Assembly (NCBI GenBank): GCA_903897605.1
Contig: CAIUCH010000032.1
Coordinates: forward strand, 1 to 64,000
Direction of reading: 5' to 3'
DNA from: an uncultured Alphaproteobacteria bacterium
GTDB lineage: Bacteria > Pseudomonadota > Alphaproteobacteria > Micropepsales > Micropepsaceae
Length of the DNA stretch: 64,000 bases
Part shown: piece by piece, positions 8,487 to 36,003 of the stretch
How positions within the stretch are numbered: the stretch's first letter is position 1
Layout: every line of letters begins with the position of its first letter
Notes under the pieces: model-generated
Seen by the model: only the letters and a program-made list of their open reading frames with translations
Told to the model about the DNA's origin: nothing
The model's database searches: none
Translations under genes and position numbers: made by a program

Positions 8487-8588
8487 GTGCAGCCCCAAAA
8501 GATCGAAACAATGCTAGCGTGCCCGCCGTCAGCCTAGCACGATCCGAACCCTCATCGAGGCCCGCCTTTCATCTTGGAGATTGCCTTC

Positions 8589-9857
8589 ATGGCAACACCG
8601 ATCCGCACGCCGCTGAATCGCCAGCAGATATTGGGTTTCTGGGCGGCTTGGTTCGGCTGGACGCTCGATGGCATGGACTCGGTGATCTACGCCCTGGTGT
8701 TGAGCCCGGCGATGAAGGAGCTGCTGCCAAAATCGGGCCTGCCCAACGCGCCCGCCGATATCGCTTTTGCCGGCTCGATCCTGTTTGCGCTGTTTCTGGT
8801 GGGCTGGGGATTATCGTTCATCTGGGGTCCGATCGCGGACCGATTTGGCCGCGCCAGATGCCTGGCGATCACGATCCTGATCTTTTCGGTTTTCACCGGC
8901 GCGGCAGCCTTGGCGCACAATGTCTGGGAGCTGGGTCTTTTCCGCTTTCTGGCGGGCATCGGCATTGGCGGCGAATGGGCGATGGCCGGCACCTATGTCG
9001 CCGAAGCCTGGCCGGAGGATCGCCGCAAGATGGGCGCCGGCTATTTGCAGACCGGCTATTACGCTGGATTCTTCCTGGCGGCGGCCCTCAATTTCACGGT
9101 CGGCGCCACCTTCGGCTGGCGTGCCATGTTCCTGTGCGGCGCGGTGCCGGTGCTGGTGGCGCTGTTCACCCTGTCGCGAGTGAAAGAGCCGCCACGTTGG
9201 GAGCGGGCGCATGCCGGTCCCAAAAGCCAACCGTTGATTATGATATTTGCCGGCGAAAATCTGCGGCGCACGATCGTGAATACCGCGCTGGTATCGATTG
9301 CGATCATCGGCCTGTGGGCGGGAACGGTCTATGAGCCGACCGCACTTCTGGCCTTGGCGAAAAATGCCGGCTTCACCGCCGTGCAAGGCACCAGGATCGC
9401 GTCCCTTGGCACGGCCGTGCTTTCCGTCGGCACCATCCTGGGATGCCTGCTGGCGCCGTTTCTGGCGGAGCGGTTCGGGCGCAAGAAGACACTGGCGGTC
9501 TATTTTGCCGGCATGGCAATCGCCATCACGCTCGCTTTTGGCTGGGCTTTCTATCTGCCGAACGGCCTTGTGCCATTCATCACGGTGTTATTCTTTCTGG
9601 GCCTTGCCGGCGGCAATTTCGCCATCTTCAGCCTGTGGCTGCCCGAGCAATACAATACCGCGATGCGGGCAACCGCCTTCGCCTTCTGCACCTCGTTCGG
9701 ACGGTTTCTGGGCGCGGGCGCGAATTTCGCCATCGCCGGCTTGATCCAATGGTCCGGGTCCCTGGGTTATGTGATCGCCCTGACGGCGATCCCCTTTGTC
9801 CTGGGTCTGGCGGTCATACCCTTTGCGACGGAAACCAAAGGCGAAGTCCTGCCGTAA
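8589..9857 (+). CDS. MFS transporter (metabolite:proton symporter type)
   Basis: Inner-membrane permease of 422 residues with 12 predicted helices. Signature segments are GPIADRFGRARCLAI between TM2 and TM3, and FRFLAGIGIGGEWAMAG in TM4, which is typical of the sialate/aromatic-acid symporter-like group. A second GRKK motif (FGRKKTLAV) marks the start of the second half. The ATG at 8589 has GGAGA eight bases upstream. It is divergent from the exported amidase, and the 3' ends of this gene and the next MFS gene are only 3 bp apart. The substrate is likely an organic acid, but this is inferred from family only. Confidence 0.85.
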   Translation: MATPIRTPLNRQQILGFWAAWFGWTLDGMDSVIYALVLSPAMKELLPKSGLPNAPADIAFAGSILFALFLVGWGLSFIWGPIADRFGRARCLAITILIFSVFTGAAALAHNVWELGLFRFLAGIGIGGEWAMAGTYVAEAWPEDRRKMGAGYLQTGYYAGFFLAAALNFTVGATFGWRAMFLCGAVPVLVALFTLSRVKEPPRWERAHAGPKSQPLIMIFAGENLRRTIVNTALVSIAIIGLWAGTVYEPTALLALAKNAGFTAVQGTRIASLGTAVLSVGTILGCLLAPFLAERFGRKKTLAVYFAGMAIAITLAFGWAFYLPNGLVPFITVLFFLGLAGGNFAIFSLWLPEQYNTAMRATAFAFCTSFGRFLGAGANFAIAGLIQWSGSLGYVIALTAIPFVLGLAVIPFATETKGEVLP

Positions 9858-11225: not shown

Positions 11226-12905
11226 TCAGCCCGCTGGTCCGGCCGGATTGAACGGCTCGCCCAGGGGATTAGGTGGTGGCGCCACCGGTGATGGCACAAA
11301 GGGATGGATCAAGGGCCAGGCGCTCGGCATTTCCCCGACCCGTACTTCAATCAGACACGGCCCGCCAGCGGCCTGTGCGGTTGTCAGTGCCGCCGCCAGA
11401 TCGGCGGGGCTGTCCGCCCGATAGGACACCACGCCAAAGGCTTTTGCCAGGAGCTGGAAGTCGGGATTGTGCAAATCGACGGCGAATTCGCGGCCGAAGA
11501 CGCGCCGTTGAATGCGTTGCACATTGCCGAAGCGGCCATCGGCGAAAACGACGACACTCAGATTCAGATCATACTTTGCCGCCGTCGCCAGTTCCTGGAG
11601 GCTCCAGCCAAAGCCGCCGTCACCGACGATGGAAACGGTGCGCTTGCCGGGGGCGCCGGCCGCAACGCCAAGGGCGGTGGGAAAGCCATAGCCCAGGGTT
11701 CCCTGATAGCCCGGCGTGATGAAGGTTCGCGGCGCATGGACCTTGTAGGCGATGTTGGAGAAATATCCGACCTGGGTCAGTTCGCTCACCAATACCGCGT
11801 CATCGGCAATGTGTTCGCGCAAGATCGCGACGAAATCCGCCTGGGGCTTGATGGCGGACATTTGTTGGTCTTCCCACGCCTTGACCTTGGCGACATCTTC
11901 AATGCGGGAATTCCGCGCGGAGGTCGATCCAATCGCGGCAACAAGCCCCTCGCATCCCAGGCGGACATCGCCGAGCAATTCGAGGCCGGGCTGGCGAGGC
12001 GCGCCCACATCATTTTCCTCGATGTTGAGATAGATGAATTTGCAATGCGGCACGGCATGGGTGGGGCGGGCAATGGCGTCCAGGAAGCGTGAACCGGCAA
12101 CCAGCACGACATCCGCATGCGGCAACACGCAGCGGCCGCCCAGCGTCGTCAGAGCGAGGGGGTGACGGGCCGAAAGCGCGCCGCGCGCGCCTTCGGTCAT
12201 GACCACCGGGGCCTGGAGTTTTTCCGCCAGCGCCCGGAGCGCTTCGTCGGCGTTGCCGGCGCTGGCACCGCCACCGGCATAGATGACCGGGAATTTGGCA
12301 TCGCTTAGAAGCTTCGCGGCCTGGGCGACCAGCTTCGCATCGACCGGAGCGGGAGCGGATGGCGCGGCGTCGAAATAAGTCGCGCTGTCAATCGTTGCCT
12401 GAAGCAGGTCCGGTGGAATTTCCAAGGCGACGGGGCGCGGGCGGCCCGACCGCAATTGCGTGAAGGCCTCATGGACAAGACTTGGAATTTCCGCAGCGGT
12501 CCTGGCAATGGCATGCCATTTGGTCAGGGATTTCAGAATACCGGATTGATCGGGGATTTCGTGCAGCATGCCGAATCCCTTGCCGATTGTGGGCGACGGG
12601 ATCTGGCCGGCGATGAACAGCACGCGCGCATTGCAAGCCCAGGCGGTGGAAAGGCCGGCCAATGCGTTCAGCACGCCCGGACCGGGCACCATCATGCAGA
12701 CGCCTTCCTTGCCGGTGGTGCGGGCATAGCCGTCGGCCATGTAAGACGTGGCCTGCTCGTGGCGGGGAACGATATATTGGATGTCGCCCGCGGCATCGCA
12801 CAAGGCATCGACCGCCCAGTCCAACTGCACCCCTGGAATGCCGAATACGATCTTCACGCCTTCGCGGCGCAATTGCTCGACCAGGGCTTGACCGCCGGTT
12901 GTCAT
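11226..12905 (-). CDS. ThDP-dependent enzyme (acetolactate synthase/2-oxoacid decarboxylase family)
   Basis: Cytoplasmic thiamine-diphosphate enzyme of 559 residues with the usual Pyr, middle and PP domains. The catalytic glutamate is in IVPRHEQATSYMADGYA (about residue 50). The ThDP/Mg site is the GDGGFGWSLQ segment with the FADGRFGN loop about 25 residues later. Members of this superfamily act as acetolactate synthases, 2-oxoacid decarboxylases or benzaldehyde lyases, and sequence alone does not decide. Its 3' neighbour is a transporter, and its start overlaps the stop of an aldehyde dehydrogenase by 4 bp. A decarboxylase making an aryl-acetaldehyde for that dehydrogenase is the simplest reading (inference). 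No ilvN-like regulatory subunit is adjacent, which argues against branched-chain biosynthesis. Confidence 0.85.
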   Translation of the reverse strand: MTTGGQALVEQLRREGVKIVFGIPGVQLDWAVDALCDAAGDIQYIVPRHEQATSYMADGYARTTGKEGVCMMVPGPGVLNALAGLSTAWACNARVLFIAGQIPSPTIGKGFGMLHEIPDQSGILKSLTKWHAIARTAAEIPSLVHEAFTQLRSGRPRPVALEIPPDLLQATIDSATYFDAAPSAPAPVDAKLVAQAAKLLSDAKFPVIYAGGGASAGNADEALRALAEKLQAPVVMTEGARGALSARHPLALTTLGGRCVLPHADVVLVAGSRFLDAIARPTHAVPHCKFIYLNIEENDVGAPRQPGLELLGDVRLGCEGLVAAIGSTSARNSRIEDVAKVKAWEDQQMSAIKPQADFVAILREHIADDAVLVSELTQVGYFSNIAYKVHAPRTFITPGYQGTLGYGFPTALGVAAGAPGKRTVSIVGDGGFGWSLQELATAAKYDLNLSVVVFADGRFGNVQRIQRRVFGREFAVDLHNPDFQLLAKAFGVVSYRADSPADLAAALTTAQAAGGPCLIEVRVGEMPSAWPLIHPFVPSPVAPPPNPLGEPFNPAGPAG

Positions 12906-14353
12906 GTCTTCTTCTCTTCCGCCGGACTTGCGCTGGGACGGGTGATGGCCTTGGGCGCGAAATATTCCTCAAGCCCATAGCGGCCATTCTCGCGGCCGAT
13001 GCCGGATTGCTTGACGCCGCCAAATGGCGCGGCAAGATCGAGCGAGGCGCCGTTGAGGATCACTTGCCCGGTCCGCATGCGGCGGGCAATCGCCATCATG
13101 CGGTCGTCATTGCCGGACCAGACGCCGCCGGACAAGCCATAGTCGCTGTCATTGGCGATCCGCACCGCTTCAGCTTCGTCGGCATAGCCGATGATCGATA
13201 AAACCGGCCCAAAGGTTTCTTGCCGAGCGATGTCCATGTGCGAATGCACATCCGATAGAATGGTTGGTGTGATGTAAGCGCCTTTGGGCTGCGCGACCGG
13301 CTGCTGCGATCCGCCGGTCACAAGGCGCGCGCCTTGTTCCACCGCGCCATTGATCGCGTCGCGCACGCTGGCTTGCTGGGTGCGATTGGCGAGCGGTCCC
13401 AGGCGGGTGGCGGGATCCATGGGATCGCCAAGGGTCCAGCCCTTGACGGCTTGGGCCGCGATAGCCTCGATTTGCTTGCGCCTGCTTTCCGGCACGATCA
13501 GGCGCGACAGCGCGGCGCAAACCTGGCCGGAATTTATGAACGCCTGACCCAGGGACGCCGGGATGGCTTTTTCCAGATCGGCGTCATCCAATATGATGTT
13601 GGCGGATTTGCCGCCCAGCTCCAGCGCGACCTTCTTGGGACCCTTGGCCGCCGCTTGTGCCACCGCGCGGCCGCCGCGCGTCGATCCCGTGAACGAGACC
13701 ATGTCGATATCGGGATGCGAGACCAGGGCCTGGCCGGTCTCGCGGCCGCCGATGATCAAATTGAAAACGCCTTTCGGCGCGCCCGCCGCATGGAAGATTT
13801 CCGCCAGGATGACGGCATTCAACGGCGTGACTTCGCTGGGCTTCAGCACCACGGTGCAGCCGGCGGCCAGGGCCGGGGCGATCTTGGCCATGATCTGGTG
13901 GAGTGGAAAATTCCACGGCGTGATGGCGGCGACGACGCCGACAGGATCGTTCTGAATGATGGAGCGGCCGATCACGCGATCGTCCAAATCCGCCGCCACA
14001 TCCAGGGTGGCCTTGATGTCGCCCAGCGGCAGGCCGATCTGGGCCGCGCGCGAAAAGCCGATCGGGCACCCCATTTCGGAGGTAATGGTTCTGGCCAACT
14101 CGTCCGCCCGCGCCGCAATTCCGGCGCTCACCCGCCGCAGCAAGCCGAGACGCTCGTCCAAGGATGTCTGCGACCAGGAATCGAAGGCCGTGCGCGCCGC
14201 TATGGCCGCGTCGGCGGCGTCCTGACGCGAACCGGCCGTGGCGCTGGCGATCACCGCTTCGGTGGCGGGATTGATCACGGCAATGACGTCGGTGGATTTG
14301 GAGGCTACCCAGGCACCGCCAATATAGAGAATACGCCCCGAACTTTGATCCAT
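12902..14353 (-). CDS. NAD(P)+-dependent aldehyde dehydrogenase
   Basis: Oxidises an aldehyde to the acid. The 483-residue protein is a full-length ALDH with the Asn site in TPWNFPLHQ, the general-base glutamate in LELGGKSANI and the nucleophilic cysteine in NSGQVCAALSR. It is closest in style to the broad-specificity aldehyde dehydrogenases. It lies 3 bp after the Rieske gene and overlaps the ThDP enzyme start by 4 bp (ATGA), so the three are one transcript. The natural substrate is probably the aldehyde released by the ThDP enzyme, possibly an arylacetaldehyde on the way to a phenylacetate (inference). Confidence 0.92.
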   Translation of the reverse strand: MDQSSGRILYIGGAWVASKSTDVIAVINPATEAVIASATAGSRQDAADAAIAARTAFDSWSQTSLDERLGLLRRVSAGIAARADELARTITSEMGCPIGFSRAAQIGLPLGDIKATLDVAADLDDRVIGRSIIQNDPVGVVAAITPWNFPLHQIMAKIAPALAAGCTVVLKPSEVTPLNAVILAEIFHAAGAPKGVFNLIIGGRETGQALVSHPDIDMVSFTGSTRGGRAVAQAAAKGPKKVALELGGKSANIILDDADLEKAIPASLGQAFINSGQVCAALSRLIVPESRRKQIEAIAAQAVKGWTLGDPMDPATRLGPLANRTQQASVRDAINGAVEQGARLVTGGSQQPVAQPKGAYITPTILSDVHSHMDIARQETFGPVLSIIGYADEAEAVRIANDSDYGLSGGVWSGNDDRMMAIARRMRTGQVILNGASLDLAAPFGGVKQSGIGRENGRYGLEEYFAPKAITRPSASPAEEKKT

Positions 14354-30937: not shown

Positions 30938-31303
30938 CTAGCGATTGAGCAGGGGAATATCCTTGCCGGTCGGCGCGGGCCCCTGGGACAGTGATTGGAT
31001 ATAGGCGACAAGATCGGCGGCTTCGCTGTCGGGTAGGACTTTTTCGGTATAAGCCGGCATCTGCGCCTGGGGATGGCGCAACTGCCGCATGATCTGGCCC
31101 ACGGTCAGTCCGGCATGCGCCAGCTTGGGTCCGACAAAGCTGGTGCTGGCGCCGGTAGTGCCGTGGCAAGTGTAGCAGGCATCGCGCATGTAGATCTGCT
31201 TGCCGCGCGCGACGTCGCCGGATGGCGCGCCTTGTGCCAGCGCGGATGTGGCAAGCAAGAGTGTCGTCGCGGTGGCAAGGAGATATTGTTTCATGTTTTT
31301 CAC
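30938..31303 (-). CDS. Small periplasmic cytochrome c
   Basis: Single-haem class I cytochrome c of 121 residues with a Sec signal peptide (cleavage after ALA, about residue 23). It carries C43-x2-C46-H47 (CYTCH) and an axial methionine, probably M82 in AQMPAYTE. The GTG start at 31303 overlaps the stop of the Tat-exported ThDP enzyme by 4 bp; an ATG three codons later is the alternative. Translational coupling and common export make it the likely electron acceptor of that enzyme, although direct pairing is inferred only from the genes. Confidence 0.9.
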   Translation of the reverse strand: MKNMKQYLLATATTLLLATSALAQGAPSGDVARGKQIYMRDACYTCHGTTGASTSFVGPKLAHAGLTVGQIMRQLRHPQAQMPAYTEKVLPDSEAADLVAYIQSLSQGPAPTGKDIPLLNR

Positions 31304-33252
31304 CGCCCCTGACAGACGACATCGATCAAGGCGGGTTCGCCGCGCTTGACCACGGCAATGGCGCGCTTGATGGCGGCGTTGAGGTCCTTGGGATCGGTGA
31401 CAGGTCCCTGGCCATAAACGCCCATGCTTTGCGCCAGCTTGCCGTAATCGATGAAGGGGTCGCGGATGGTGGTGCCGATATGGGTGCGATCGACGCCGCG
31501 CTGCATGCGATTGGCCATCTGCTGCAGCAACATGATCTCCTGATGCCAGGCGCGATTATTGTGCATGATGTAGAGGATCGGAATCTTCTCATGCGCTGCG
31601 GTCCAAAGCGCGCTGGGACAGCACATCAGATCGCCGTCGGATTGGATCGAAACCGTCAATCGGCCATGCTTCTTGTTGGCAAGCGCGGCGCCCAGGGTCG
31701 CCGGTGCGGTATAGCCAATGCCATAGGCGCCGGCATCGCCGATATAGCGATGATGTTTGTCGGCATGCCAAAGCTTCTGCGGCCAGGAATTCTGGAACAG
31801 GGAGCCGGACGCCAAAGTCCAGTCTTCATCCTTGATGACGTTGTAAAGCTCCATCACCAGCCGCGCCGTGGTGATCGGTTGCGAATCCCAACCTTCGGCC
31901 GCAAGCGCGCGCTGCTCGCCAAGCGCCGCCAAATGCGCATCGCCCAGCTTTTTGCCGCGAAGGTCGAAATTCGAGCGTTTGTTCTGGTCGATCAAAACCC
32001 GGCACGCTTCGATCAGCGAAGGCAGGCTGGCTTCGGCGTCGCCTTCCAGCGCCAGATCGGCATCGGGATAACGTTGGAAATCCTGGTAGTTGGAATGGAA
32101 GTTGAGATCGACGGCGGAAAGACTGATGCGTTTCGCGCCGGGCTTGGTGATGCTTTGGGTGCTGACGTCGGTATGCGGGACAAAGGAATGGGTGGTGCCC
32201 CAGAAATCGGTCATCTCCATGCCCAAGATCATATCAGCCCCGGCAATTGCCGCACGACCGCGGCTGGTCTGGTTGAGGGGATGGCGCCAGGGAAAATTCA
32301 TCCGCCCGGAGGCATCCACCACCGGCGCCTGCAACAGCTCGGCAAGTTCGACCAGATACCGCAGTCCCGCCGGCGTGCGCGCGACGCGGTCGCAGACCAG
32401 GACCGGGGCTTCGGCCGCGACCAGCATTTTGGCGACATCCCGCAGCGCGCCGTCTTCGGCTTGCGGCGCGGCGATCTTGGGCGGATGCGGAATTGCCGGA
32501 CGCGGCGCGTCTTCGATCGGGTCTTCCTGCAAGTCTGTGGAGGTGACCAGCAGGACCGGTCCATAGGGCGGCGTCATGGCGTATTTCCACGCCCGTGTCG
32601 CGGATTCCGCCCAATGCTGAAGGGAGCCGGGGCGGTCGTCCCATTTGACGAAATCGCGCACGATCGCCGCCCCGTCCTGCACCGAATGGACGAACTGCAC
32701 CATGGTCTTGCGGGTACGCAGGTCCGGCGCCGTCGGCGTGATCAGGAATATCGGTACGCGGTCGGCATAGGCATTGTAGATCGCCATCGAGCCATGCTGC
32801 AGGCCCACCGTGTCGTGCATCATCGCCGCCATGGGCTTGCCTTCGATCTTGGCATAGCCATGGCACATGGCGACCGAGACCTCTTCATGCATGCAGGAGA
32901 GGAAATCGATATGCGGTTCGGTCAGCATGCCGTAATTGATCAGCGACTCGTGAATGCCGCGGAAACTTGAGCCGACAAAAGCTGCGGCATGTTCGATGCC
33001 CAGGCCGCGCATGACATCGACCATGAAGTCGCCGCCGCTGCTCGATTGGGTGATCGGCTGGACGTCCGCAGGCATACCGCGCTCGGCCTCGCGATCCGGT
33101 GCCGCCGGAATACTGGATGCGGGTGCCTTCGGCGGAGCGGCTTCTTGCGCTGCAACGGACAATGGGGCTGTGAGGGCGCCGGCCCCGGCCAGGGTCGCGC
33201 CTTTGAGGAAGAAGCGGCGTCCGAGCTTGATTTCATCGCTACGCTTCGCCAT
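31300..33252 (-). CDS. Tat-exported ThDP-dependent enzyme of the acetolactate synthase superfamily
   Basis: A 650-residue protein that begins with a canonical twin-arginine signal (KLGRRFFLKGATLAGAGALT), so it should fold with its cofactor in the cytoplasm and be exported. The three ThDP-enzyme domains follow. The catalytic glutamate is in CMHEEVSVAMCHGYA (about 122-124), and the metal/ThDP site has D539-G540 (SDGDLM; the usual first Gly is Ser) and N565/N566 in IMHNNRAWHQE. Nearly all described relatives are cytoplasmic. The overlapping cytochrome c gene suggests an oxidative decarboxylase of a 2-oxo acid in the periplasm (inference). The ATG at 33252 is chosen because the Tat signal then starts normally. 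A CHRD protein and a PQQ alcohol dehydrogenase are divergent from it. Confidence 0.85.
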   Translation of the reverse strand: MAKRSDEIKLGRRFFLKGATLAGAGALTAPLSVAAQEAAPPKAPASSIPAAPDREAERGMPADVQPITQSSSGGDFMVDVMRGLGIEHAAAFVGSSFRGIHESLINYGMLTEPHIDFLSCMHEEVSVAMCHGYAKIEGKPMAAMMHDTVGLQHGSMAIYNAYADRVPIFLITPTAPDLRTRKTMVQFVHSVQDGAAIVRDFVKWDDRPGSLQHWAESATRAWKYAMTPPYGPVLLVTSTDLQEDPIEDAPRPAIPHPPKIAAPQAEDGALRDVAKMLVAAEAPVLVCDRVARTPAGLRYLVELAELLQAPVVDASGRMNFPWRHPLNQTSRGRAAIAGADMILGMEMTDFWGTTHSFVPHTDVSTQSITKPGAKRISLSAVDLNFHSNYQDFQRYPDADLALEGDAEASLPSLIEACRVLIDQNKRSNFDLRGKKLGDAHLAALGEQRALAAEGWDSQPITTARLVMELYNVIKDEDWTLASGSLFQNSWPQKLWHADKHHRYIGDAGAYGIGYTAPATLGAALANKKHGRLTVSIQSDGDLMCCPSALWTAAHEKIPILYIMHNNRAWHQEIMLLQQMANRMQRGVDRTHIGTTIRDPFIDYGKLAQSMGVYGQGPVTDPKDLNAAIKRAIAVVKRGEPALIDVVCQGR

Positions 33253-33401
33253 GCGGCCCCGCCGGTATTGCTGGTCGGCGGCCATTCTCAGGAAGAAGCC
33301 TTGCCAGTCAATGCGGGGAGAGGCAAAAGCCAGCCCCGCTCTATCCGGGGCGATGCGAATTCTGATAAGAAAAATATGTCCAATGCCGAGGGGGCAAAGC
33401 C

Positions 33402-33839
33402 ATGAAGCGCATGATCAGCGGAGCGGTCGTTTTTGCCATCCTCACGGCTGTTCCCGTCTTTGCGGCCGATCCGCAATTCGAAGGCGAGCTCGATCCTGTC
33501 CCGCACGACAATTCCACCCGCGACAATGTCGTGGGCACCGGCATGGTATCCGCCCTATTGTCCGGCAATACCCTCACGGTGAGCGGAAACTTTGCCGGGT
33601 TGTCCTCGGCCGCGACGGCGGCGCATCTCAAAATGGGATTGGCGATGGGCGTTCCCGGCCCGTCGATCGGCGATCTCACCGCGACGCAAGCAACGGACGG
33701 CAAGATTTCTGGCAGCATCAAGTTGAACGCCGCTGCGATCGCCGCTCTGAAAAAAGGCGGACTGTATGTCGAACTCGACAGTGCCAACGCGCCGGACGGC
33801 AATTCCTGGGGCTGGCTCGAGAATCCGGAGCCGAACTAG
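33402..33839 (+). CDS. Exported CHRD-domain protein
   Basis: Secreted protein of 145 residues with a Sec signal peptide (cleavage after VFA, residue 21). The rest is one CHRD-type beta domain, seen in the segments [34 protein letters not shown] and the C-terminal [11 protein letters not shown]. The domain is named after chordin, and its function in bacteria is unknown. GAGGGGG precedes the ATG. The PQQ alcohol dehydrogenase follows 28 bp downstream, so the two are probably co-expressed, and it may bind or stabilise a periplasmic partner. Confidence 0.75.
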
Positions 33840-33867
33840 CCTTAATGATCCAAGGAGACGTCATTTC

Positions 33868-36003
33868 ATGACCGGGTTTGGAAAATATTTCGCGCTGGCG
33901 GTTGCCATCATTGCTCTTGACCATGTCTACGCCGCCGCCGTTGAAAATCCGCCTGTGGCGGTTTTCGCGGTGGACCAGGCCGCCGCCGGGAGAAGCGAAT
34001 ATCTCGAGAATTGCGCCGGCTGCCACGGCAACAATCTCGCGGGCGGGAATGATTCGCCGGCGCTTGCGGGCATCGGCTTCATGAGCAGTTGGGGCAGCCG
34101 ATCGACCAAGGCGCTCTACCAGTTCATCTCCACCACCATGCCGGTGGGCAATGCCGGCAATCTCGGCGCCGGCACCTATGCGGACATCGCCGCTTTTCTT
34201 CTGGAAGCCAATGGCGCCAAACCCGGCACGGCCATTCTGACCGGCAACACCGACGTCCGCGTCGGCTCTGTCGCCAATGGCCAGGTCTTGGCCGAGGTGC
34301 AGAAGGGATTGGCGCCGCCGCTGGATCAGGGTGGCTCGCCGCGCGCAACCACCCATCTGGGCATCACGGTCGCGGGCATGGTGCGAAATTACGTTCCGGT
34401 CACTGACGACATGCTGGCGCATCCGTCCGATGGCGACTGGCTGATGTATCGGCGCAGCTACCAGGGTTGGAGCTACAGCCCGCTCACTCAGATCGATGCG
34501 CGCAACGTCAAAACGCTTCAGCTCAAATGGTCCTGGGCGATGAAAGAGGGCGGCGCCAGCGAGGTGACGCCGATCGTTCACAATGGTGTGATCTTTCTGT
34601 CCAACACCTCCAACACGGTGCAGGCGCTGGATGCCAGGACCGGCGAACTGATCTGGGAGAATCATATCGGGCCGGAAGCAACAGTCGCCTATATGGCGAC
34701 GCGCAGCTTGGCGCTCTATGCCGACAAGGTCTATGTCGCGACCACCGATGCCAAGCTGTATGCACTGGACGCGCGCACCGGCAAGGTTGCATGGCATGTC
34801 GAAATCGCGCCGCCGCCGAAAGGCGAGACCGGCGGCGTCATCGTCATTCACGACAAGGTGCTGGTGGGGATGATGGGCTGCGACAATTACACGATCGTCA
34901 ATTGCCACATGAGCGCCTATGACGCGCAAACCGGTAAGCAGGATTGGACCTTCTACACCACGGCGCGCGAAGGAACGCCCGGCGGCGACAGCTGGAACAA
35001 ACTTCCCGACACGCAGCGCGCCGGCACCGATACCTGGATTGCCGGGACTTATGATCCGGAACTGAACACGACCTATTGGGGCGTGGCGCAGTCAAAACCC
35101 TGGATGCGCGCCAGCCGCAAGACATATGGCGCACCGACGCTTTATGCCAATTCGACTTTGGCGCTCGATCCGGATAGCGGCAAACTCAAATGGTATTACC
35201 AGCACATCCCGGGAGAATCGCTTGACCTGGACGAAGTTTTCGAACGGGTGTTGATCGATCATGGCGACCAGAAGACCCTGATGACAATCGGCAAGGATGG
35301 CGTGTTGTGGAAGCTGGATCGCGTCACGGGCAAATTCCTGGGTGAAAAGGAGACCCTGTTTCAGAATGTCTTCAGCAAGATCGATCCCAAGACCGGTCAG
35401 GTGACCTATCGTTCCGATATCATCAACCAGAAGACCAATGAATGGATCTCCTCCTGCCCCGGACCGGAAGGTGGCCATGACTGGCAGGCGACCAGTTACA
35501 ACGCGCCCACCGATCTGCTGATCATTCCGCTCAGCCAAAGTTGCGTGCTGATGCGCGGCCATGACGTCGACATGAAGCTGGGCGGCGGCGGCACCGCCGC
35601 GTCGCAGCTTTTCTATTTCATGCCCGGAACCCATCGCAACATGGGCAAGCTGGTCGCCTATGACACCAAGAGCATGAAGGAAGTCTGGTCCTTCCAGCAG
35701 CGTGCGCCGTTCCTCACCTCGGTGCTCTCGACCGGCGGCGGTGTCGCCTTCATTGGCGATTTCGACCGCGTCTTCAAGGCGGTGGATGTGAGGACCGGCA
35801 AGACGCTGTGGCAGACCAGGCTGGGAAACACGGTGCAGGGCTATCCCGTCTCGTTCAGTCTCGATGGCAAACAATATGTCGCCGTCACGACTGGACTGGG
35901 CGGCGGCAGTCCCGAACAAAAGCCCTCCACCTTGCTGACCGAGGTGCATCGCTCCGGCACCGGCCAGCAGCTTTATCTGTTCGCGCTGCCGGACGGCGGT
36001 TGA
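33868..36003 (+). CDS. Quinoprotein alcohol dehydrogenase with N-terminal cytochrome c domain
   Basis: Periplasmic PQQ enzyme of 711 residues. A Sec signal is followed by a cytochrome c domain (C49-x2-C52-H53, CAGCH) and then an eight-bladed propeller (about 190-705) with W-motifs such as [12 protein letters not shown] and [26 protein letters not shown] is a classical PQQ-ADH segment. The candidate catalytic aspartate is D453 in GESLDLDEV, with a second Asp (D455) two residues later. That Asp-x-Asp pattern is associated with lanthanide-dependent XoxF/ExaF-type enzymes. The haem domain is at the N-terminus, whereas type II quinohaemoproteins carry it at the C-terminus. AAGGAG precedes the ATG at 33868, so the longer frame is rejected. 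Confidence 0.9.

Follow-up and report, generated by a model that had tools for sequence, protein, structure and literature searches.

Decarboxylases and ligases that depend on thiamine diphosphate (ThDP) are held to be enzymes of the cytoplasm. Benzoylformate decarboxylase (BFD) is free of FAD, and 2-hydroxyacyl-CoA lyase (HACL) is a cytoplasmic enzyme of CoA thioesters, for which we know of neither a leader peptide nor a cytochrome partner. Pyruvate oxidase (PoxB, pyruvate:quinone oxidoreductase) is a ThDP enzyme that supplies the respiratory chain with electrons, using FAD and quinone on the cytoplasmic side of the membrane. In the open-access literature, where the few papers bearing the terms were judged by title and abstract, no description was found of a Tat-exported ThDP enzyme or of a ThDP–cytochrome c pair. 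In this study, we focus on a window of 64,000 nucleotides from an uncultured alphaproteobacterium of the Micropepsaceae, for which a preliminary description had claimed a Tat leader on a ThDP-superfamily protein encoded beside a cytochrome c with a signal peptide. This arrangement was confirmed in the window and recovered in homologues (Table 1), and it is best read as a ThDP enzyme exported by Tat and partnered by a cytochrome c.

Table 1. Positions of the pair and of other features in the window.
Feature	Position	Strand	Basis
ThDP enzyme, BFD fold, 650 aa	31300..33252	minus	Pfam, profile matches, structural model
Twin-arginine leader, about residues 1-42: GRRFFLKG, hydrophobic stretch, AQ	33127..33252	minus	Sequence; RRxF[LI] in 77/77 complete N-termini of Tat-type loci
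Single-haem c-type cytochrome, 121 aa, Sec-type signal peptide, CYTCH, distal MPAY Met ligand	30938..31303	minus	Pfam Cytochrome_CBB3/Cytochrom_C above cut-off
MFS permease, aromatic acid/sialate symporter-like; possible associated gene	8574..9857	+	Ortholog adjacency in L009, L010
Catabolic island	9861-45056		
Second ThDP enzyme, leaderless, adjoining an aldehyde dehydrogenase	11226-14353		
Quinoprotein with N-terminal cytochrome c domain	33766-36003		

The 650-aa protein, whose N-terminus reads MAKRSDEIKLGRRFFLKGATLAGAGALTAPLSVAAQ, belongs to the decarboxylase/ALS type of the ThDP-dependent superfamily; an upstream ATG at 33285 is a possible alternative start and would give 661 aa. All three TPP domains score above the Pfam gathering cut-offs (TPP_enzyme_N, 59.4 vs 26.8; the central TPP_enzyme_M, 36.3 vs 30.4; TPP_enzyme_C, 82.5 vs 21.9), and both the activating Glu and the Mg2+-binding DG...NN motif are present. 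Among NCBIfam models, the nearest is PRK08327 ('thiamine pyrophosphate-requiring' proteins), with 237 bits against a cut-off of 456 that is not reached, and the BFD model PRK07092 gives 141.3 bits, below its cut-off of 493.

An AlphaFold2 model of the protein, built from 44 sequences, has a mean pLDDT of 85 and a pTM of 0.84, with low confidence for residues 1-60 (leader and linker). It matches BFD across residues 71-650 (VIA-align Z of 37.6, 2.5 Å over 513-515 residues), and BFD also provides the best profile matches. The ThDP/Mg site looked for in the model is present: E123, the Glu of the HEE motif, aligns with the catalytic Glu, and D539 and N566 align with the Mg2+ ligands. Along with N565, these residues are invariant in 79 Tat-type and 27 leaderless sequences. 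Because of the BFD fold and the invariance of the ThDP Glu and Mg2+ Asp/Asn residues, the modelled active site is likely to be competent. With regard to the surrounding residues, H146 falls on the His in the LHSAAG segment of BFD, which we take to be BFD His70; of the 79 Tat-type sequences, 68 have His and 11 have Gln at this position, and all 27 leaderless ones have His. S95/S96 presumably correspond to BFD Ser26. Furthermore, E572 aligns with Glu493 of HACL, the position changed in an E493Q entry, and it is Glu in 79/79 Tat-type and Asp in 27/27 leaderless sequences. It lies within a motif of the Tat clade, H-N-N-R-A-W-H-Q-E-x-M (residues 564-574), in which H564, W569, H570 and M574, found directly after the metal-site Asn, are characteristic of the clade. 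One may guess at a role for these four residues in substrate or electron transfer.

The leader of the window's protein combines an RRxFLK motif with a hydrophobic stretch, and the host genome encodes a TatC protein scoring above cut-off, from which we infer Tat export of the ThDP enzyme. An RRxF[LI] motif followed by a hydrophobic stretch is found in all 77 complete N-termini of the Tat-type loci, the twin arginines and the next Phe being invariant. Two further sequences (L101 and L107), flagged by a loose motif filter on chance RR motifs in upstream out-of-register sequence, were rejected as Tat-type and counted as leaderless.

The partner is a class I cytochrome c by its signal peptide, CXXCH site and distal Met, and an MPx[YF] motif follows the haem site in 76 out of 77 partner cytochromes. 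A CcmF/NrfE-type gene also scores above cut-off in the host genome, so that, with TatC, both export and haem attachment are possible there. As for the translational coupling that had been proposed, the GTG start at 31303 does give a 4-bp overlap (GTGA) with the ThDP stop, but the cytochrome may equally start at the ATG at 31294, which yields an equally good signal peptide, MKQYLLATATTLLLATSALAQ, and the overlap is not conserved. In the relatives, the genes are usually separated by a few to about 30 bases, with 69 gapped pairs and eight in which an overlapping start is available; it is therefore the tight spacing that is kept, and not the 4-bp overlap. Some partner cytochromes are longer (L026, L030, L031 and L117, from Sphingomonas, Burkholderia and Caballeronia), and those of L026, L030 and L031, from the Sphingomonas and Burkholderia members, carry two CXXCH sites.

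A scan of a genome collection with exact peptide patterns yielded 80 relatives, among which close relatives are over-represented because of the way the loci were found; more distant relatives came from a class-wide search. The 81 Tat-type loci, among which are the copy in the window and one genome that occurs twice (L089 is the same locus as L013), come from alpha-, beta- and gammaproteobacteria and Acidobacteriota. When these homologues were checked for the partner gene, a cytochrome c gene lay directly downstream of the ThDP gene in 77 of the 81. In two others (L020 and L042), it lies directly upstream instead, inside an array of two ThDP and two cytochrome genes, and the last two are unassessable, being N-masked at this place (L077) or at a contig end (L088). 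Conversely, an adjacent cytochrome is absent from all 27 nearest leaderless relatives (L090-L115 and L063). In a separate collection, the Novosphingobium and Caballeronia loci (L116 and L117) both have leader and cytochrome, and six others (L118, L119 and L121-L124) have neither. Since leader and pairing are kept in divergent homologues with unrelated flanks, both are far beyond chance. Under strict cut-offs, the wider family is rare, being found in 15 of 289 genomes class-wide and in 4 of 398 phylum-wide; the class-wide search gave no match in two genomes that share the genus of the window.

Arrays of two Tat-type ThDP genes and two cytochrome genes occur in L020, L042 and L085, which suggests duplication of the whole module. 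The leaderless relatives L090-L115 reach up to four copies per genome, and the plasmid-borne L118 and L119, which resemble them, adjoin transporters or hydroxyacid dehydrogenases.

In a tree of the ThDP proteins built without the leader columns (a quick tree, in which some leaderless sequences sit on long branches), the Tat-type sequences form one group of common descent, separate from the leaderless relatives. The only sequences within it scored as lacking the leader, L054 and L070, both start at contig ends. The tree thus shows only one transition, so that the two-by-two table is not a test of independent events; what carries weight is that the pair is kept across divergent lineages. In pairwise comparison, the ThDP proteins are on average 50% identical and the cytochromes 37%. 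Over 63 dereplicated pairs, the two sets of distances correlate with r = 0.90 (the highest value among 5000 permutations was 0.24), a sign of co-inheritance that is partly due to shared ancestry. When neighbouring genes were clustered, with exclusion of clusters falling inside the ThDP gene (antisense or shadow frames), no gene besides the ThDP and cytochrome genes was kept in more than about one fifth of the loci.

With regard to the gene neighbourhood, the window holds 4-hydroxyphenylpyruvate dioxygenase (HPPD), homogentisate dioxygenase (HmgA), fumarylacetoacetase (FAH), the hydratase HpaH, an HpaI-like aldolase and a Rieske protein. Near the pair at other loci are found HpaD, a LigB dioxygenase, FAH proteins, UbiD, class II aldolases, FAD monooxygenases and aromatic acid MFS transporters, and the Caballeronia locus has a Rieske/PdxA cluster. 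An ortholog of the MFS permease, 88-89% identical, directly follows the cytochrome gene in L009 and L010, which are the two closest relatives; the window copy is about 20 kb from the pair. Owing to these aromatic-degradation neighbours, aromatic or related acids or aldehydes are the probable substrates. No single pathway recurs among the neighbourhoods, and this aromatic context, which varies from locus to locus, could reflect general gene neighbourhoods in these bacteria of soil and water.

The catabolic island of the window also includes kynureninase, aldehyde dehydrogenases, glycerol kinase and glycerol-3-phosphate dehydrogenase. The second, leaderless ThDP enzyme and the aldehyde dehydrogenase next to it make a plausible cytoplasmic decarboxylase/dehydrogenase pair. 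The UxaA/Ldh2 neighbours were considered as a sulfolactate pathway feeding a sulfopyruvate-type ThDP enzyme, a candidate rejected on finding no such genes near other loci. In 14 acidobacterial and proteobacterial loci (among them L043, L054, L057, L080 and L088), a protein cluster including DUF6152 members is present near the pair. The quinoprotein of the window scores 377 against a cut-off of 480 with the PQQ alcohol dehydrogenase model, and 293 against 650 with the 'acido-empty-quinoprotein' model.

With regard to the substrate class and the direction and route of electron flow, we infer a periplasmic oxidation, and we give an even chance to the proposal that the Tat-exported enzyme oxidises a 2-oxo acid or an aldehyde and passes the electrons to its dedicated cytochrome c. 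The enzyme would fold and bind ThDP and Mg2+ in the cytoplasm and then be exported in folded form. In the periplasm, ThDP would attack a 2-oxo acid, or an aldehyde giving the same carbanion/enamine intermediate, which the cytochrome would oxidise in two one-electron steps. The acyl-ThDP left behind would be hydrolysed to the acid, and the cytochrome would hand its electrons to a terminal oxidase. The substrates would probably come from plant or lignin breakdown, the products then being imported and degraded. Transfer straight from the ThDP intermediate to a dedicated haem c protein, with neither FAD nor an Fe-S centre, across Proteobacteria and Acidobacteriota, is a bolder proposal to which we give slightly less than an even chance. 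Such a transfer would be unusual, since enzymes of the BFD fold are mostly non-redox and neither an FAD nor an Fe-S relay was found here.

The active site and its context also allow aldehyde oxidation or a carboligase/lyase reaction. The main rival, which we consider unlikely, is a periplasmic non-oxidative decarboxylase or lyase/carboligase of the BFD/benzaldehyde lyase type, which would release an aldehyde for oxidation by a separate dehydrogenase or quinoprotein, the cytochrome serving that enzyme and not the ThDP enzyme. The closest solved structures (BFD, BAL, GCL and HACL) are indeed those of non-redox enzymes, and in the window the pair adjoins a PQQ-type quinoprotein that has a cytochrome domain of its own. 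The quinoprotein gene had also been put forward in the preliminary description as support for periplasmic oxidation; however, it is divergently transcribed and its relatives lie near only 5-7 other loci, and for these reasons we do not retain it as part of the unit. The same rarity counts against the non-oxidative rival, as do the one-to-one occurrence of the cytochrome with the ThDP gene and the lack of any dehydrogenase conserved with the pair.

A less probable rival, to which we give little credence, is that the pair acts as a periplasmic ThDP aldehyde:cytochrome c oxidoreductase, converting aldehydes rather than 2-oxo acids to acids. ThDP adds to aldehydes to form the same intermediate as from 2-oxo acids, aromatic-degradation neighbours would supply aromatic aldehydes, and aldehyde-making quinoproteins are found near the pair in some loci. 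However, sequence does not separate aldehydes from 2-oxo acids as substrates, and H146 (with its Gln variants) and S95/S96 match BFD residues that handle the 2-oxo acid. Finally, it is very improbable that the ThDP protein is an inactive periplasmic binding or sensing protein, given catalytic and metal residues invariant across divergent members, or that its leader does not bring about export, given the invariant twin arginines and following Phe.

The export tag of the ThDP enzyme and its almost constant pairing with a cytochrome gene suggest an undescribed oxidation taking place outside the inner membrane. With a conserved exported branch that has a cytochrome of its own, thiamine chemistry would reach into the periplasm. 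If true, the proposed oxidation by the pair would give 2-oxo acids or aldehydes a further point of entry into respiration, and would be a ThDP oxidation that needs neither CoA nor NAD and probably no FAD. Dozens of two-gene pairs are available that could be assayed directly.

Compared with the described systems, the window protein shares with BFD (P. putida MdlC, PDB 1bfd and relatives) the profile matches, the fold, the catalytic Glu, the active-site His and the metal Asp/Asn. It is only 22% identical to BFD, to which it adds the Tat leader and the cytochrome partner, and it carries E572, W569 and H570 where BFD has Leu461, Tyr458 and Gly459, respectively (presumed BFD numbering). Its C-terminal ThDP-binding part aligns best with the HACL enzyme AcHACL (PDB 7pt1), whose NNRAWNIE segment resembles NNRAWHQE of the window. 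As opposed to PoxB, the window system has a Tat leader and a cytochrome c, and its 67.6 bits with the pyruvate oxidase model PRK08611 are below the cut-off of 742. The leaderless relatives L090-L115 form the neighbouring group on the tree, with 30-39% identity, and have neither the adjacent cytochrome nor the H564/W569/H570/M574 signature.
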